Shown: positions 546 to 12,694 of the stretch, in pieces
How positions within the stretch are numbered: position 1 is the first letter of the stretch
Layout: each line of letters begins with the position of its first letter
NCBI RefSeq assembly: GCF_005771675.1
Contig: NZ_VAJM01000001.1
Coordinates: forward strand, 248,001 to 312,000
DNA: 64,000 nt
Reading direction: 5' to 3'
Source of the DNA: Hymenobacter jeollabukensis
GTDB lineage: Bacteria > Bacteroidota > Bacteroidia > Cytophagales > Hymenobacteraceae
Translations under genes and position numbers: made by a program
The notes under the pieces: generated by a model
Seen by the model: only the letters and a program-made list of their open reading frames with translations
The model's database searches: none
What the model was told of the DNA's origin: nothing

Positions 546-3209
546 TCAGTTCAGCCCGTACGTTACCGAAAGGTAGTACAGCCCGCCCACGCTCGGGCCG
601 CCGAGAAAGGACACATAGTAGTCGTTCAGCACGTTGGTGGCGCCGAGCTTGAAGCGCAGGTCGGGCTTGGGCACGGTGTAGCTTAGCTGCGCATCGAGGG
701 TGCCGTAGGCCGGCACGTAGCCGGTGACCAGGAAGGTCTGCGAGTAGTAGCGCTGCTGCCAGCGGTAGTTCAGCCCGAAACCCAGGCCGCAGAAGGCGTG
801 CTCGTGGCCCAGGCTGAGGTTGTAGATCCAGCGCGGGGTGTTGAAGCCGTCTTCCAGCCCGTCGCCCGACTCGGTGCGGCGCAGGCGGGCGTAGGTGGCG
901 TTGGCCCCGGCCAGCAGGCCGCCGGGCAGCTCGTAGCGCAGGCCCAGGGAGCCGCCGTAGTTGCTCACGCGGCTCTGGGAGTTGGTCCAGAGACGGTAGC
1001 GGGCCTGGGTGGCGCGGGCATTCAGGGCGGTGGCCACGGCATTGGGGTCGGCGGCGGGGCTAAGGGGCTGGCCGGCGGCATCAAGCGGCACGTAGGCTTC
1101 CACCTGGGCAATGAAGTCCTGGTAGCGGTTGTAGTAGAAGTCCACGTCGAGCAGCAGCCGGCCGCCCGGCAGCAGGGCCGCCTTGTAGCCTAGCTCCAGG
1201 GAGCGGATGTGCTCGGGCCGCAGGTAAGTGTAAGGGTTCTTGCGCAGCAGGCCCTGGTTGTGCCCGATGGCGAGGCGGCGCTTGTCCGCCGCCGGGGCGC
1301 CGCTGGTATTGGCGTTGACTTCGGCCGTCACGGCGGCGTTGAACTGGTCGATGCTGCTGCGCAGGTAGCTGTTTTCGAACACGCCATCGGACATCACCCG
1401 CAGCCCGCCGATGCGCTTCACCTGCCCGCTGTTCACGTTCGAAAAGCCCTCGAACAGGCTCGGAAACCGGTAGCCGCTCTGGTAGCTCAACCGGAAGTGG
1501 TGCCGCGCGGTGGGCGACAGGACGGCCGTCAGCCGCGGGTTCAGGCGGACCGCGAAGTAGTCGTTTTTGTCGGCGCGCAGGGTGGCCGTGAGGCGCAGCC
1601 GCTCGCGCCAGAGCCGGGCGCCGGCCTGCACGAAGCCGCCGGTCTTGCCGTAGGTGAGCGGGCTGAACTGGTCCTTGCCCGGCTCGGGGTTGATAAAGTA
1701 ATTGCCGTCGGGCACGATGACGTAGGTGCGGTGGTCGAGGCCGGCGCGCAGGTCGTAGCGGGCGGGCAGGGCGGCCCAGGGGCCGCCGCGCAGGGCCTGG
1801 GCCACATCCACCTGGGTTTCGGCGTGGATGAGGTCGGCCCGCACCCGCAGCGCGGCGCCCTGGTCCCAGTTGTTGATGTCGGCCAGCTCCCGCAGTTTGG
1901 CCTCGAAGGCCGGCGTGCCGGGCTGCAGGCGGCCGGCATCGGCGGCCAGGCGGGCGGCAGCGTGGGCCTGCCCGACCGACTGCCCGGCCTGCACGGCGGC
2001 GTTCCAGGCGGCGGTGTAGTCGGTTTTCCACTGCGCGTCCGACTTGAAGCTGCGGTCCAGGTTTTCGGCGGCGGAGCGCAGGTTGTAGCTGCGGCCGGTG
2101 TTTTCGTGGGTGAAGTAGGCCCGGGCCTGCACCAGCGGTGTGGTCAGCGCCAGGGCGTGCTGCTGCAAGGTGTAGCCCGCCAGCCGAAAGCGGTTGGAGC
2201 GTTGGTACACGTTGTCGAGGCCGGCCACGCGGTAGGTGTAGGCCAGCTCGGTGCGGGCCGCGGGGCGGAAGTGCAGGGCCGCGTCGGCCTTGAGGTTGCG
2301 CAGGCGGTAGTCCACCACGTCCAGCTCGCGGTAGCCGGTGCGGGCCACGGTGTAGTCCTTGCCGCCCAAAGTGAACGTGGAGCGGTTCGACGACTCGTTG
2401 CCGTAGCCGCTCACCGGGTCGTAGGCCGGGTTCGAGGGGCCGCCGGGCAGCCCGGCCGAGGCATTGCCCTGCGGGTAAAGGTCCGTCAGGTCGCCTGCGA
2501 CCCAGTCGTAGCCGCGGGTGTAAGTACCGTTGACTTTGAACGCCCACTTCGAACTCAGCACCCGGGCGTAGCGCAGGCTGGTTTCGCTGAAGAGCCGGGC
2601 GGCGCTGTTGGGGTCGTTCAGGTGGTTGACGCCGGTTTTTTGCAGCCCGCTCAGCCCCTCGGAGCTGAACGGGCTGCGGGTCGTGAAGTTGGCCAGCCCG
2701 TTGATGGCGTTCAGCCCGTAGAGCGCCGCCGCCGTGCCCGGCACGATTTCCACCGCCGCAATATCCAGGTCACTCGGCCCGAGGGCATTGCCGATGGGCC
2801 CGCCGATGTGCGGCGCCTGGTTGTCGATGCCGTCGACCAGCTGGGCAAAGCGTACGTTGGTGGTATTGGCGAAACCGCGGGCGTTGATGACCTTGAAGCC
2901 CAGGCTGGGCGTAATCACCTGCACGCCCTTCACCCCCTCAATGGCCTCGAAAAACGAGGGCGCCGGCGTCAGGCGCAGAGCCCGGGCGCTTAGCTTCTCC
3001 ACCGTCACCGGCGACTGAAGGATGCTTTCCTCGACCCGCGAGGCCGCCACTACCACCTCGCCCAGGGCAATGGGCGCCCGGCGGGCGGTATCGGCCGGCG
3101 TGGCAGCACTAGTCGTCGGCACGGTTTGGGCCGTAGCCGCGCCGAGTGGCCAGGCCGTCAGGCAGGAAAGCGCGGCGGCGGGCCGCAACCAGCGTAGCAA
3201 TTCGCTCAT
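546..3209 (-). CDS. TonB-dependent outer-membrane receptor, candidate molybdate/tungstate uptake
   Basis: This is a TonB-dependent receptor of about 887 residues: signal peptide ending near ATAQ, a plug domain (SPVTVEKLS, then the GVKGVQVITP region and GTAAALYGLNAINGLAN around residues 60-180), then a long beta-barrel ending in aromatic/polar strands (YLSVTYGLN). The ATG at 3209 is preferred over an in-frame ATG 42 nt upstream because a normal signal peptide begins there (MSELLRWLRPAAALS). Such receptors import scarce ligands across the outer membrane using TonB energy. The upstream gene encodes a ModE-like DNA-binding protein, and a ModE-type operator overlaps a -7 box in front of this gene, so a molybdenum- or tungsten-containing ligand is inferred. 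No modABC genes lie in the window. Confidence 0.9.
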   Translation of the reverse strand: MSELLRWLRPAAALSCLTAWPLGAATAQTVPTTSAATPADTARRAPIALGEVVVAASRVEESILQSPVTVEKLSARALRLTPAPSFFEAIEGVKGVQVITPSLGFKVINARGFANTTNVRFAQLVDGIDNQAPHIGGPIGNALGPSDLDIAAVEIVPGTAAALYGLNAINGLANFTTRSPFSSEGLSGLQKTGVNHLNDPNSAARLFSETSLRYARVLSSKWAFKVNGTYTRGYDWVAGDLTDLYPQGNASAGLPGGPSNPAYDPVSGYGNESSNRSTFTLGGKDYTVARTGYRELDVVDYRLRNLKADAALHFRPAARTELAYTYRVAGLDNVYQRSNRFRLAGYTLQQHALALTTPLVQARAYFTHENTGRSYNLRSAAENLDRSFKSDAQWKTDYTAAWNAAVQAGQSVGQAHAAARLAADAGRLQPGTPAFEAKLRELADINNWDQGAALRVRADLIHAETQVDVAQALRGGPWAALPARYDLRAGLDHRTYVIVPDGNYFINPEPGKDQFSPLTYGKTGGFVQAGARLWRERLRLTATLRADKNDYFAVRLNPRLTAVLSPTARHHFRLSYQSGYRFPSLFEGFSNVNSGQVKRIGGLRVMSDGVFENSYLRSSIDQFNAAVTAEVNANTSGAPAADKRRLAIGHNQGLLRKNPYTYLRPEHIRSLELGYKAALLPGGRLLLDVDFYYNRYQDFIAQVEAYVPLDAAGQPLSPAADPNAVATALNARATQARYRLWTNSQSRVSNYGGSLGLRYELPGGLLAGANATYARLRRTESGDGLEDGFNTPRWIYNLSLGHEHAFCGLGFGLNYRWQQRYYSQTFLVTGYVPAYGTLDAQLSYTVPKPDLRFKLGATNVLNDYYVSFLGGPSVGGLYYLSVTYGLN

Positions 3210-3295
3210 GTAGTAACCCCAGTGAAGTCGTCGGCGGGGCGGCTCAGCCACCCGCTATGCCGGGAAAGGGCGCTTCGTTTGCAACCGCAACGATG

Positions 3296-3319
3296 CGTTA
3301 TTCCCGGTCAAACATAACG
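3296..3319 (-). promoter_or_regulatory. ModE-like operator overlapping a -7 promoter element
   Basis: The sequence shows an inverted repeat CGTTAT-N12-ATAACG. The E. coli ModE operator, as I remember it, has the same half-sites and spacing. Read on the minus strand, TATGTTTG (3316 to 3309) matches the Bacteroidota -7 consensus TAnnTTTG and overlaps one operator half-site. A bound regulator would block the promoter of the TonB-dependent receptor. No clear -33 TTG was found. The predicted leader is about 90 nt. Confidence 0.6.
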
Positions 3320-3341
3320 ACACTTCACCCGCTGGGTTACG

Positions 3342-3701
3342 CTAGCCGTGCAGGCGGGCGGTTTCGGCTTCCACAAAGGCCTGAAAGCGAAGCTGCAGCG
3401 CCTCGAAATCGGCTACGGCCTGCGCGCCGGCATCCGTCAGGTGCGCCCCGCCGCCGCGCTGCCCGCCGGTTTGGGTGCTCACCAGCGGCACCCGCGCCTG
3501 GGTGTTCATCGAGCTGACCAGCTCCCAGGCCCGCTTGTAGGACATGTTCATGGCCTGCGCGGCCTTGGAAATGGAGCCCAGCAGCTGAATGTGCTGCAGC
3601 AGCTCCAGCCGCCCGATGCCGAGGAATCGGTCCGCGGGGCCTTCGATCCAGAGGCGGCCGTTGACGCGGAAGGTGGCGGGGTCGGGAAAGACGTCTTTCA
3701 T
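3342..3701 (-). CDS. ModE-like winged-helix transcriptional regulator, no molybdate-binding domain
   Basis: The product is about 119 residues and corresponds to the N-terminal DNA-binding domain of ModE/LysR-type molybdate regulators: GRLWIEGP, FLGIGRLELLQHI, then the helix-turn-helix GSISKAAQAMNMSYKRAWELV, and the Gly-rich wing TGGQRGGGAHLTDAG. Full-length ModE also carries C-terminal TOBE/Mop domains that bind molybdate; they are absent here, as in many short ModE relatives. ATG at 3701 is chosen; a TTG three codons upstream is the alternative. It lies directly upstream of, and on the same strand as, the TonB-dependent receptor, with a ModE-type operator between them. It probably controls that receptor; how it senses metal is not visible. 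Confidence 0.85.
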   Translation of the reverse strand: MKDVFPDPATFRVNGRLWIEGPADRFLGIGRLELLQHIQLLGSISKAAQAMNMSYKRAWELVSSMNTQARVPLVSTQTGGQRGGGAHLTDAGAQAVADFEALQLRFQAFVEAETARLHG

Positions 3702-3988
3702 GGAAAACAACGAGCCGCAGGGTTCGGCTTTTCGGCAAAATACGCGCCCCTGCTCTTTCCGACGCCAAAATCAGCTCTGCTTCCGTTCCTTCACCGACCA
3801 TGAGAGTTGGCAGATCATCCAATTTGGAATCAATTTATTACCTTATTCAAGAATTATTTGTTTTATTTGACTAAAACAACCGCCGCGCACCACAGGTTGC
3901 CAGCCTCTGGAATACGCGTAGATTCTGCTTTATCAGCCGTTCGTCCACCATTTGCGCGGCTCTTTGGCCGCCGATAATCCTCTTTGCC
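3702..3988. other. Intergenic region between divergent genes
   Basis: This stretch lies between the ModE-like gene (minus) and the first GT-C gene (plus). Its middle (about 3815-3870) is AT-rich and probably holds promoters, but I could not find a clean TAnnTTTG element. On the minus strand GTATTTTG near 3733-3740 is one base from the consensus and could serve the regulator. No credible ORF was seen. Confidence 0.4.
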
Positions 3989-5695
3989 ATGCCGTTGCTG
4001 TTCAACGCCACTGCTCCGACGCAGGTGGCTCCCGCACGCGCGTCCCGGCCTCGCTCGGCTGCGGCGGCACTGCTCCCCTACTCCGGCCCGGCGCTGCTGG
4101 CGGTGCTGAGCCTGGGCATGCTGGTCAGGGTGTACCACTTCGCCTACGACCGGTCTTTCTTCATCGACGAAATCTACCTGAACGTCAACTTCGTGGGCCG
4201 CAGCTTCTGGCAGCTGGCCACCGAGCCGCTGCTCTACGAGCAGAAAGCCCCCCTGGGCTACCTCTGGACGGTAAAGCTATTCGCCGTGCTGTTTGGACCG
4301 GGGCAGCAGGCGCTGCGCCTGTTTTCGCTGCTCAGCAGCCTGGCCGCCTTGCTAGTGCTGGTGCCGGTGGCCCGGCACTTCCTGCGGCCCTGGGGCGTGG
4401 TGGCCGCCGTGGCCATGCTGGCCGCCTCCGATTCCTGCATCTATCACGCCCTGGAGGCCAAACAGTACGCCGTGGAGCTGCTGGCCACGCTGCTGGCCCT
4501 GTGGCTCTACATCCGCTACCAACCGGTGCCCAGCCTGCGCGGGCAGCTGCAGTGGGGGTTGTTCGGCGCGTTGCTGGTGTGGTTTTCCTTCCCGGTGATA
4601 TTCGTGCTGGCCGGCATGGCCGGGGCCCTGGGCATGGCCGCCCTGCTGCGCCGCGACTGGCGGCAGGTGCGGGCCTACGTGCTGCCCTTCAGCTGCTGGC
4701 TGCTGAGCTTCGGGCTGCAGTACGCGCTCTACATCAGCAAGTTTCCGCAGTCGGCCTGGCTGATGGACTTCTTCGACCAGCAGTACGACGCCTTCATGCC
4801 CTGGTCGCCGACGGCGCTGCTGCCCTGGCTGGCGCACAAAACCTACATGCTCACCCAGCACCCGTTGGGGCTGATGCCGCACAAGGAAGACTCCGAGTTC
4901 CTGCTGTTCTCGCCCTGGCGCTACGTGGTGAAGCTGGGCTGGCTGCACCTGGGCTTTCTGCTGGCCGGCGCCGCCCTGTTGCTGCGCGCCGACCGGCTGA
5001 AGTTCTTCGTGCTCACCCTGCCCATAGCCCTGATGCTGGTGGCCTCGGGACTAGGCGTGTACCCGGTTTTCGAGCGGTTTACGCAGTTTCTGGCCCCGGC
5101 CCTGATGCTGATGGCGGCCTACGGACTCGACCGCTTCCTCTACGCCGCTACGCCCCGCTTCCGGGCCGCGCCGCTGGTGCTGCTCGTCTTCTTCGCCCCG
5201 CCGTTTTACAACACTACGGCCCAGGCCCTGAACCCGAGCCGCTTCAAAAACCGCGAATACAACCGGGAGGTCATCATGTACGTCAACGCCCACTACCAGC
5301 CGGGCGACGTGGTGTACCTGTTCTGGAACATGCGCCACGTGTACGAGTACTATCAGGGCGCCTACGGCCTGCGCTTTACGCCCGTGAAGGGCAGCAACGT
5401 GAAAAACGAGTCGCACAATGCGACGGAGTTCATGCAGAAGCTGCAGCCGGATTTGGCCCGGCTGCAGGGCGCCCGCCGGGTCTGGTTCGTGTACGACTAT
5501 GTGAACCGGGACCCCATCGGGGACTACGCCAACCAGCCGGCCTGGTACCACGAGGACGCATTCAAGCCCACCCAACCGCTGGAAGACTACTTCGCGCAGC
5601 ACGGCCGCCGCATCGATTTCTTCCAGCTGGGCCCGCACACCGCCAGCCTCTACGAAATGCCCCGGCCGGCTGCCGCATCGAGCCCCAAGCCCTGA
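3989..5695 (+). CDS. GT-C membrane glycosyltransferase (ArnT/PMT-like), paralogue 1
   Basis: This polytopic membrane protein of 568 residues has about ten hydrophobic segments. The first loop after TM1 carries the acidic pair typical of GT-C enzymes (DRSFFIDEIYLNVN), followed by QKAPLGYLWTVKLF, as in ArnT and protein mannosyltransferases that use polyprenyl-phosphate sugars on the periplasmic side. A soluble C-terminal domain (YVNAHYQPGDVVYLFWNM onward) ends in a Pro/Ala tail. It is clearly paralogous to the protein at 7768-9531, with the C-terminal domains especially alike. The HAD phosphatase and UbiA genes between the two suggest that they share a donor substrate. Acceptor and sugar are unknown. 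Confidence 0.8.
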   Translation: MPLLFNATAPTQVAPARASRPRSAAAALLPYSGPALLAVLSLGMLVRVYHFAYDRSFFIDEIYLNVNFVGRSFWQLATEPLLYEQKAPLGYLWTVKLFAVLFGPGQQALRLFSLLSSLAALLVLVPVARHFLRPWGVVAAVAMLAASDSCIYHALEAKQYAVELLATLLALWLYIRYQPVPSLRGQLQWGLFGALLVWFSFPVIFVLAGMAGALGMAALLRRDWRQVRAYVLPFSCWLLSFGLQYALYISKFPQSAWLMDFFDQQYDAFMPWSPTALLPWLAHKTYMLTQHPLGLMPHKEDSEFLLFSPWRYVVKLGWLHLGFLLAGAALLLRADRLKFFVLTLPIALMLVASGLGVYPVFERFTQFLAPALMLMAAYGLDRFLYAATPRFRAAPLVLLVFFAPPFYNTTAQALNPSRFKNREYNREVIMYVNAHYQPGDVVYLFWNMRHVYEYYQGAYGLRFTPVKGSNVKNESHNATEFMQKLQPDLARLQGARRVWFVYDYVNRDPIGDYANQPAWYHEDAFKPTQPLEDYFAQHGRRIDFFQLGPHTASLYEMPRPAAASSPKP

Positions 5696-10771: not shown

Positions 10772-12343
10772 TTACGCTCCTTTCGGGCTGAGCGTGATGT
10801 AGGGGATGATGCACTCCTCCAGGGAAATCCCGCCGTGCTGGAAGGTGTCCTTGTAGAAGTTCACGTAGTAGTTGTAGTTGTTGGGGTAGGCGAAGAAATA
10901 GTCGCCCACGGTGAAGACGTAAGCCGTCGACACGTTCTCACGCGGCAGAAACACCCGCTCCGGCTTGCGCACCACGTACACGTCGCGCGACTCGTCGAAG
11001 CCCAGGTTTTTGCCGTGCTTGTAGCGCAGGTTGGTGTTGGTGTTCCGGTCGCCCACGATTTTGTAGGGCCGCTTGCAGCGGATGGTGCCGTGGTCGGTGG
11101 TGATGATAAGCTTGCCCTTCTTGTCGGCAATGACCTGCAGCATCTCGTAGAGCGGCGAGTGGAGGAACCACGAGCGGGTGATGCTGCGGTACGCCGATTC
11201 GTCGGCCGCCAGCTCCCGGATCATGGCCATGTCGGTGCGGGCGTGGCTGAGCATGTCTACGAAGTTGTAGACGATGACGTTCAGCTTGTAGTTGTTGTGC
11301 AGGTTGGGCATTTTGCCCAGCAGGTCCTTGCCGGCCTGCAGGTTCGTGACCTTGTTGTAGCTGAACTTCTGCTTCTGGTTGTTTTTCTGGAAGTTGATTT
11401 CCATGAACTCGGCCTCGTGCAGGTTTTTGCCCTCGTCGTCGTCGTCCCACACCCACAGGTTGGGGTACTTCTTCTGAATCTCGCCGGGCATCATGCCCGA
11501 GAAGATGGCGTTGCGGGCGTAGGCCGTGGTGGTGGGCAGGATGGAGTAGTACATTTCCTCCGTGTCCACCGTGAACATTTCGGCAATGATGGGCTCCAGC
11601 ACCTTCCACTGGTCGTAGCGCAGGTTGTCGATGAGCACGAAGTACACCGGGGTATCACCAGTCTGCTTCATCAAGGGGAACACCCGCTCTTTGAACAGCT
11701 GGTGCGACATGAGCGGGGCGTCCTTGTCCTCGCCGTTCACCCAGTCCTCGTAGTTCTCGGTGATGAAGCGGCCGAAGTAGGTGTTGGCCTCGTCCTTCTG
11801 CATGTTGAAGACGTCGGCCATGCTCTTGCCCTCCGTCTCGTTGATTTCCAGCTCCCAGTAAGTCAGCTTCTTGTACACGTCGGCCCACTCGGCGGGGCTC
11901 AGCCGGTCCGACAGCTGCATGCCCAGCTGCCGGAAGTCGCGCTGGTAGCTGCTGTTGGTTTTCTCCGAGACGAGGCGCTTGTTGTCGAGCACCTTCTTCA
12001 CCGACAGCAGAATCTGGTTGGGGTTGACGGGCTTGATGAGGTAGTCGGCAATCTTGGAGCCTATGGCTTCCTCCATGATGTGCTCCTCCTCGCTCTTGGT
12101 AATCATGATGACCGGGAGCGTGGGCTTGGCGGCCTTGATTTCGGACAAAGCCTGCAGGCCGGTGATGCCGGGCATGTTCTCGTCGAGGAACACGAGGTCG
12201 TAGTTTTTCTCCTGGACCTCGTCGATGGCGTCGGCGCCGGAGTTGACGCCCGTCACGTCGTAGCCCCGCTCCTTCAGGAACAGGATGTGCGGCTTGAGCA
12301 GGTCAATTTCGTCGTCGGCCCAGAGGATGCTGTAACGTTGCAT
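10772..12343 (-). CDS. porX: PorX: response regulator with PglZ domain (type IX secretion control)
   Basis: The product has about 523 residues, close to known PorX proteins. Residues 1-120 are a receiver domain (SILWADDEIDLL acidic pair, phospho-acceptor Asp54 in VFLDENMPG, Lys in IMITKSEE). A helical linker follows, then a C-terminal PglZ domain of the alkaline-phosphatase superfamily with metal-ligand-like motifs (FVLIDNLRYDQW, TTTAYARNAIFSG, NVIVYNFVDMLSHARTD, LIITTDHGTIRC). In Porphyromonas, PorX with the kinase PorY regulates the type IX secretion system and acts with a sigma factor. ATG 12343 is chosen because the receiver starts there; the upstream in-frame ATG adds 21 non-homologous residues. 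PorY is not in the window. Confidence 0.92.
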   Translation of the reverse strand: MQRYSILWADDEIDLLKPHILFLKERGYDVTGVNSGADAIDEVQEKNYDLVFLDENMPGITGLQALSEIKAAKPTLPVIMITKSEEEHIMEEAIGSKIADYLIKPVNPNQILLSVKKVLDNKRLVSEKTNSSYQRDFRQLGMQLSDRLSPAEWADVYKKLTYWELEINETEGKSMADVFNMQKDEANTYFGRFITENYEDWVNGEDKDAPLMSHQLFKERVFPLMKQTGDTPVYFVLIDNLRYDQWKVLEPIIAEMFTVDTEEMYYSILPTTTAYARNAIFSGMMPGEIQKKYPNLWVWDDDDEGKNLHEAEFMEINFQKNNQKQKFSYNKVTNLQAGKDLLGKMPNLHNNYKLNVIVYNFVDMLSHARTDMAMIRELAADESAYRSITRSWFLHSPLYEMLQVIADKKGKLIITTDHGTIRCKRPYKIVGDRNTNTNLRYKHGKNLGFDESRDVYVVRKPERVFLPRENVSTAYVFTVGDYFFAYPNNYNYYVNFYKDTFQHGGISLEECIIPYITLSPKGA

Positions 12344-12694
12344 GCAGTGTAGTTCGGGTTGAGAGGATGCGTGGCGGGCAAAGGCCACTTGCGGCGCTTG
12401 AAACACGGCGCCCCGCCGGTTTTGCGGTGCGCAACCTAACGTATCAAAGCCGATTTATGATGCGGCCCCAATCGAAAAGGCGAGTGAGCTTCAAGCTAGG
12501 GTAACCCCAAACCGGGCCCCAGGGTTGCATTCGGCCCGCGCTATGTACCCGAAGCATCGACCAACGCCCGGCTTTTCTCGCCGATGCCGGCCGCTGTGGC
12601 GCCGGCCGGCTTTTTTCGCCCCGACCCGGCGCCCGTGCTTTCCGTACCACTGAATCCGACTACTTTTCGGCCCCCAAACCACCTTCCGCGCCCC
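12344..12694. other. Intergenic region between porX and the HD gene, with an orphan terminator
   Basis: On the plus strand an intrinsic terminator lies at 12586-12616 (stem GCCGGCC / GGCCGGC, then T6). No plus-strand gene precedes it for nearly 2 kb, so it ends either a short untranslated leader or a small RNA. Downstream, TACTTTTC at 12661-12668 is one base from the -7 consensus and would start transcription about 20 nt before the TTG at 12695. Confidence 0.5.
12586..12616 (+). terminator. Intrinsic terminator upstream of the HD gene
   Basis: Stem GCCGGCC (12586-12592) with GGCCGGC (12604-12610), followed directly by six T. It only works on the plus strand. It lies upstream of the predicted HD-gene promoter, which argues against the ATG at 12584 as that gene's start. 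Confidence 0.7.

Follow-up and report, generated by a model that had tools for sequence, protein, structure and literature searches.

Introduction

Molybdate is usually left to porins for its crossing of the outer membrane, and the TonB-dependent receptors (TBDRs) that have been characterised for metals serve iron-siderophores, zinc, copper and manganese. In the titles and first parts of abstracts of the papers found by searching open-licence PMC full texts (subscription papers and RegPrecise lay outside this scope), neither a TBDR for molybdate nor a TBDR controlled by ModE is named. As for the regulator, one study describes single-domain ModE genes in Desulfovibrio, where they occur with another operator and with separate MOP-bearing genes (PMC545781). 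In this work, we have analysed a 64,000-nucleotide stretch of Hymenobacter jeollabukensis (contig NZ_VAJM01000001.1, positions 248,001 to 312,000; the whole stretch is called the window hereafter), in which a small ModE-like regulator gene and a ModE-type operator stand before a TBDR gene. We consider it probable, from the genomic comparisons below, that the genes found here form an outer-membrane uptake unit that responds to molybdenum, with a TBDR repressed by this metal.

Layout of the locus

On the minus strand, the order is modE-like gene, palindrome, TBDR gene and a small open reading frame (ORF). The features are as follows.

3342..3701, minus strand: single-domain ModE-like regulator gene, 119 amino acids (aa), matching the ModE DNA-binding domain, no molbindin/TOBE domain
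3296..3319, no strand assigned: operator CGTTAT-N12-ATAACG, letters CGTTATTCCCGGTCAAACATAACG, 0 mismatches, 22 bp from the end of the modE gene
3309..3316, minus strand: Bacteroidota-type -7 box TATGTTTG, within the receptor-side operator arm, read from the sequence
546..3209, minus strand: TBDR gene, 887 aa, clade A, with PF00593 and PF07715
20..538, minus strand: 172-aa ORF starting 7 bp past the TBDR stop, a possible operon partner, lineage-specific

The arrangement of operator, regulator and receptor, which had been described in an earlier note on this DNA, is confirmed. The gene starts given there are right (ATG 3209 for the TBDR and ATG 3701 for modE), and so is the overlap of the -7 box with one half-site, as TATGTTTG lies at 3316-3309 on the minus strand, inside the receptor-facing arm. 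The Bacteroidota -7 consensus is TAnnTTTG. In 72 aligned loci, this motif is found 31 times in the receptor-side arm, versus 5 times in the opposite arm (read on the other strand), and this bias favours a promoter inside the operator that fires towards the receptor. By eye, no clear -33 TTTG element is seen.

Conservation of the operator with regulator and receptor

By the count in the 64-kb window alone, the palindrome exceeds chance only weakly: 2 sites occur with 2 mismatches or fewer, versus 0.65 expected, and 17 of 100 shuffles reach 2. In the 6.18-Mb genome to which the window belongs, the site is the sole copy of CGTTAT-N12-ATAACG without mismatch, and the 38 sites at up to 2 mismatches are rarer than those of the reversed control (96). 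Since the bare pattern shows no genome-wide enrichment, the case for an operator rests on conservation.

We have taken a family sample of 200 genomes, 109 of which have a modE hit (including one decayed remnant, G015). Among 30 modE loci fetched, the best core site has at most 1 mismatch in 26 and 2 mismatches in 2 (L024 and L036); in L037 and L038 the operator lies ~2.3-2.5 kb away from modE, before the TBDR. The 26 sites with no more than 1 mismatch, among them the window site, served to train a scoring matrix. The window operator scores 30.6 in this matrix, to whose training set it belongs, and is the sole site of at least 6 in the window; the only 1-mismatch site of the genome, C1:692748, scores 12.2. 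In the 4 kb around modA of E. coli K-12, this Bacteroidota-only matrix gives the modA operator 25.1 bits and the next best site -0.5, so that the known operator stands 25 bits above the next best and the claim of a ModE-type operator is borne out.

In addition, an extended form of the site, CGTTATNTTTNNNNAAANATAACG, occurs at up to 1 mismatch 75 times in 72 of the 200 genomes, versus 4 times for the reversed control, and 71 of the 75 adjoin modE/TBDR by coordinates. The window site is too asymmetric for the extended form and is absent from these 75, as are the sites of the other same-genus genomes. In 20 regions of 20 kb around modE, taken from 19 of the 109 genomes, a TBDR adjoins modE in 18 (in two pieces in L046), and most other neighbours vary between lineages; the TBDR is missing from the region of G003 and from that around the second modE gene in G029. 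Across the 132 sampled genomes in the three genera with the system, both genes are present in 108, modE alone in 1, the TBDR alone in 7 and neither in 16. In this count, the TBDR orthologues are the hits with E=0, those of genus g4 at 52-54% and pieces of either; paralogues at 44-46% are excluded.

The operator also follows the regulator. The 30 best TBDR loci include 23 from modE genomes, and each of these has a site of at least 25.7, at 49-168 bp before the match (part of these sites belonged to the training set of the matrix, and there are close kin among the 23 genomes). The remaining 7 (6 without modE and 1 with a decayed modE) have no site above 1.4; these seven operator-less loci are not independent losses. 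In G175, the TBDR keeps its operator though modE sits on another contig.

The earlier note had proposed a search for the operator before homologous receptors in other Hymenobacter genomes, and the outcome is positive. Of 145 named loci found, 80 were kept. In 71 of them, the 900 bp upstream of the TBDR match contain a site that scores 20 or more, and 66 of these 71 also have a flanking modE. Grouped otherwise, modE and operator occur together at 66 loci, neither at 6, the operator only at 5 and modE only at 3 (best sites 15.2, 5.0 and 19.6). The named hosts are mostly Hymenobacter, and also include Solirubrum, Adhaeribacter, Ferruginibacter, Chitinophaga, Pseudarcicella and a Sphingobacteriaceae metagenome-assembled genome.

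Molybdenum genes preceded by the same operator in relatives

The four extended sites away from modE/TBDR are found in G009 (two), G003 and G145. One site of G009 precedes an Oxidored_molyb-modA-modB-modC operon and the other precedes CCP_MauG and a second TBDR. The site of G003 precedes a like operon, with its genes read by likeness to those of G009, and that of G145 a molybdoenzyme operon. Of 30 modA loci, 24 have an upstream site of at least 10, mostly weaker than that at the TBDR and ~100-250 bp before the ModA match, with the site of G009 at 0.7 kb; elsewhere in these 3.7-kb modA loci there is no site. The other 6 loci have none, and two of them (G096 and G024) come from genomes without modE.

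The flanks of the 80 named loci, 1,048,981 positions in all, hold only 6 other sites of at least 20. All six lie 261-284 bp before the [2Fe-2S] gene of an operon of the xanthine dehydrogenase (XDH) type, as checked by Pfam on L190 and by tblastn for the other five. Moreover, 9 of the 80 named loci have moaA in their flank, and 8 of these have moeB too. Overall, CGTTAT-N12-ATAACG is conserved before molybdenum genes, and the comparison with other genomes suggests that the receptor takes up molybdenum.

In G399, of the same class and another family, the genes stand on one strand in the order modE-TBDR-TBDR2-CCP_MauG-Oxidored_molyb-modA-TOBE-modB-modC. The product of the TOBE gene has two TOBE stretches and the Oxidored_molyb protein is small. 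Apart from the TOBE protein, these kinds of genes are those of the three operator-marked places of G009.

The second TBDR and its neighbour, a di-haem cytochrome c peroxidase (CCP_MauG), form an observation of their own. They are at L299:5146-7140 and 3969-5072 in G399, and at L130:5065-8179 in G009, where the receptor copy is split over two frames. The second TBDRs of the two genomes appear to be alike.

The regulator and its missing sensor domain

The 119-aa regulator has the N-terminal winged-helix domain of ModE. It matches HTH_1 in Pfam and TIGR00637 (ModE_repress, E=1.6e-21), and in the PDB it matches 2ijl (E=1.9e-18), 1o7l (E=3.6e-12) and also 1b9m. C-terminal molbindin/TOBE domains are not found in it, so the description of the upstream gene as a ModE DNA-binding domain only is correct. 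The NF007957 score, 61.8 bits, is under the curated cut-off of 369. At E<=0.001, no TOBE domain is found in the whole genome either, despite its molybdenum cofactor (Moco) genes and four XDH-type molybdenum subunits, and the same search is positive in 12 of 14 control genomes. As no molbindin is found in the genome, the presumed molybdenum signal must be read by other means, whether through the small domain, through a partner that has escaped recognition or through Moco.

The receptor and its related clades

The receptor is a TBDR by its domains, with the barrel (PF00593, E=1.8e-31) and the plug (PF07715, E=5.7e-11), and reaches no cut-off of a curated TBDR family in NCBIfam. A haem or B12 receptor is rejected, since the scores stay below the curated cut-offs (haem/haemoglobin TIGR01785, 89.5 vs 316.85 bits). 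In the PDB there is no close solved relative, the best match being the colicin I receptor (E=4e-4, residues 52-179). The AlphaFold model of the receptor has a mean predicted local distance difference test (pLDDT) score of 56.6 over 10 rows, with the plug mostly below 50; as this confidence is low, nothing was built on the model.

A quick tree was built from 71 receptors, and in it a branch with a support of 100 in the Shimodaira-Hasegawa-like approximate likelihood ratio test (SH-aLRT) has every one of the 39 clade A rows on one side. With the root at the midpoint only, clade B stands beside A and the rest (C) outside; L314, labelled C by the identity cut-off, falls in clade B on the tree. The nearest receptor paralogue in the genome of the window (42%, L304:7107-10016 on contig 12) belongs to clade B, and its neighbours are cysH, cysD, cysN, a DUF2490 protein and a siroheme/TauE fusion, as named from Pfam domains and gene order. 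Relatives of cysDNH and/or of the siroheme-TauE fusion are nearby in 12 of 16 clade B loci. In a thirteenth, L330, a gene of the chromate-transporter family (L330:11546-12913) and a DUF2490 relative are nearby. The clade B receptor of such sulfate-assimilation clusters is, in its own right, a candidate for a TonB receptor whose substrate is a sulfur oxyanion or an organosulfur compound. For clade C, the seven neighbour genes scanned in L315, L319, L321 and L323 point to no common substrate.

Sulfate and molybdate are both tetrahedral oxyanions, which makes a single oxyanion receptor family an attractive reading, and the ties of clade B to sulfate assimilation are hinting at such a family. We have also looked for an oxyanion signature in the conserved columns specific to clade A, which are not enriched in K/R/H (3/30 vs 21/201, p=0.64), so the receptor sequence gives no preference to a bare anion either.

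The inner-membrane step and the need for molybdenum

The genome of the window has four XDH-type molybdenum subunits and thus needs molybdenum. ModA was not found in it, and its ModB match reaches only 23.4 bits versus a cut-off of 182.6. Its Moco cluster, on contig 26, has XdhC, MoaE, MoaA, MoeB, FdhD and a 387-aa permease of the MOT1 family (E=2.7e-55). With thresholds that we have set at score gaps (E<=2e-26 for MOT1 and E<=5e-50 for ModA), MOT1 is present in 97 and ModA in 33 of the 200 genomes, and no genome has both. For the 109 modE genomes, the numbers are 77 with MOT1, 30 with ModA, none with both and 2 with neither, namely G191, with ModA in two pieces, and G197, which is 82% complete. 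At the curated cut-offs, 127 and 81 of the 200 genomes have MOT1 and ModA, respectively, and the weaker matches overlap. Subject to our choice of thresholds, one regulated outer-membrane step that goes with either of two unrelated inner-membrane routes is as a molybdenum receptor predicts.

The largest group of these weaker matches is a tandem pair of SBP_bac_11 proteins (E 2.1e-42 to 2.9e-41), which is the best match to the ModA family in 12 MOT1 genomes. We have excluded these pairs from the ModA count, since three of their loci (G026, G162 and G043) have neither a relative of ModA, ModB or ModC of G009 (E<=1e-3) nor the operator. The pair itself, with near-equal scores, occurs in many g5 genomes, for example at G107:C29:12671-14189 and in L349-L351.

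Other features of the window

The 172-aa ORF after the TBDR matches nothing in Pfam or NCBIfam at E<=0.001, and 4 of the 19 regions compared with that of the window contain relatives of it. Elsewhere in the window, 10772-12406 on the minus strand encodes a protein with a response regulator and a PglZ domain, which we take to be the make-up of PorX-type regulators.

Interpretation

Based on these analyses, the prediction of a molybdenum-repressed TBDR is well supported by the comparative data. The proposed mechanism is that, when molybdenum (or tungsten) is sufficient, the ModE-like protein would bind the palindrome and block the sigma factor, presumably by occlusion. When molybdenum is scarce, it would leave the operator and the receptor would be made. 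The receptor would then move molybdenum across the outer membrane using TonB energy, as its family suggests, and the inner-membrane step would be taken by the MOT1-type permease here and by ModABC in relatives, followed by Moco synthesis.

As to what crosses the receptor, two proposals deserve similar, tentative weight. It is possible, though we would hesitate to count on it, that clades A and B are TonB receptors for tetrahedral oxyanions, with A taking molybdate under the single-domain ModE and B, beside cysDNH/TauE genes, taking sulfate or a sulfur oxyanion related to it. TonB energy would then serve to concentrate bare inorganic oxyanions in the periplasm, and MOT1, which works without a binding protein, would provide the inner-membrane step here. 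About as plausible, and still short of probable, is a cargo of molybdenum chelate (a catechol-type metallophore or another organic chelate), which is a variant of the molybdenum-uptake explanation and does not exclude it. Most TBDRs characterised for metals take chelates, and siderophores that bind molybdenum, such as azotochelin, are known. However, no chelator genes are among the identified neighbours, though the genome was not searched for such genes, and the sister clade is linked to sulfate assimilation. That the receptor instead imports an organic substrate of a molybdoenzyme, so that ModE matches uptake to enzyme competence, appears unlikely to us. At least two XDH-type subunits flank 20 of the 80 named loci (distantly in L226), and six of these operons have their own operator, as this proposal would have it; but all 20 loci are of Hymenobacter, the partners elsewhere are modABC or moa genes, and the operator precedes modA as well. 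ModE-family regulators usually do not distinguish tungstate from molybdate, which would allow tungstate to be the true signal or cargo. We give this a somewhat smaller chance still, because the linked enzymes are XDH-type molybdoenzymes with Moco genes, though tungsten-specific genes were not looked for. Finally, a chance palindrome beside a coincidental modE neighbour would agree with the shuffles of the window, but it is rejected as extremely improbable on conservation, since 71 of the 80 named loci have the site and, among the 30 best TBDR loci, all seven that have no intact modE are without it.

Several observations weigh against a molybdenum-responsive uptake unit. The regulator scores 76.2 bits for TIGR00637, under the curated cut-off of 98.5, and, with no TOBE domain, the genome has no known molybdenum sensor. 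No operator is seen at the genome's own four molybdoenzyme loci (3.7 kb each) or in its Moco/MOT1 region. Seven genomes have the TBDR without a modE hit, and in G015 a single deletion may have removed the operator together with the 3' part of modE. In G164 there is a site of 25.5 with changed half-sites and no modE hit, and L228 has a site of 27.8 and no modE in its flank, where only the flank was searched. There is no site of at least 12 near the TBDR in L298-L303 and L252, even in L299-L302 of family f7, where the modE-TBDR pair is kept. Across the phylum, a receptor at the level of clade A (over 1,100 bits) is found in only 13 of 395 genomes, 9 of them outside the family of the window, so its distribution is patchy. 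All our counts, moreover, ignore the kinship among genomes.

If true, a TonB receptor repressed by molybdenum in several Bacteroidota families would mean active uptake of molybdenum across the outer membrane, and the locus would offer a clean case of a ModE-like regulator without molbindin in the genome.

Comparison with known systems

Among the described systems, the ModE regulon of E. coli is like the present one in the operator half-sites and their spacing, in the related DNA-binding domain and in the mod operons that are targeted in relatives. It differs in that, here, there are no molbindin domains and no ModA, and the one clear target is an outer-membrane receptor. The single-domain ModE of Desulfovibrio (PMC545781) and the protein of PDB 2ijl are like our regulator in consisting of the DNA-binding domain only. 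According to that study, the Desulfovibrio sites read CGGTCACG-N14-CGTGACCG, whereas the E. coli-type site is kept here.

For the uptake step, the ModA-IcmP system of the H2 type VI secretion system of P. aeruginosa is alike in providing an outer-membrane partner for molybdate; this partner, IcmP, is not a TBDR (PMC8602904). The MOT1 permeases (PF16983) are present in the Moco cluster of the same genome as our locus, but they serve the inner-membrane step and no operator is seen there. The TBDRs for other metals are similar in having a plug and a barrel and in being made when their metal is scarce, as is predicted here; the difference is that in our locus the regulator and the gene neighbours point to molybdenum.

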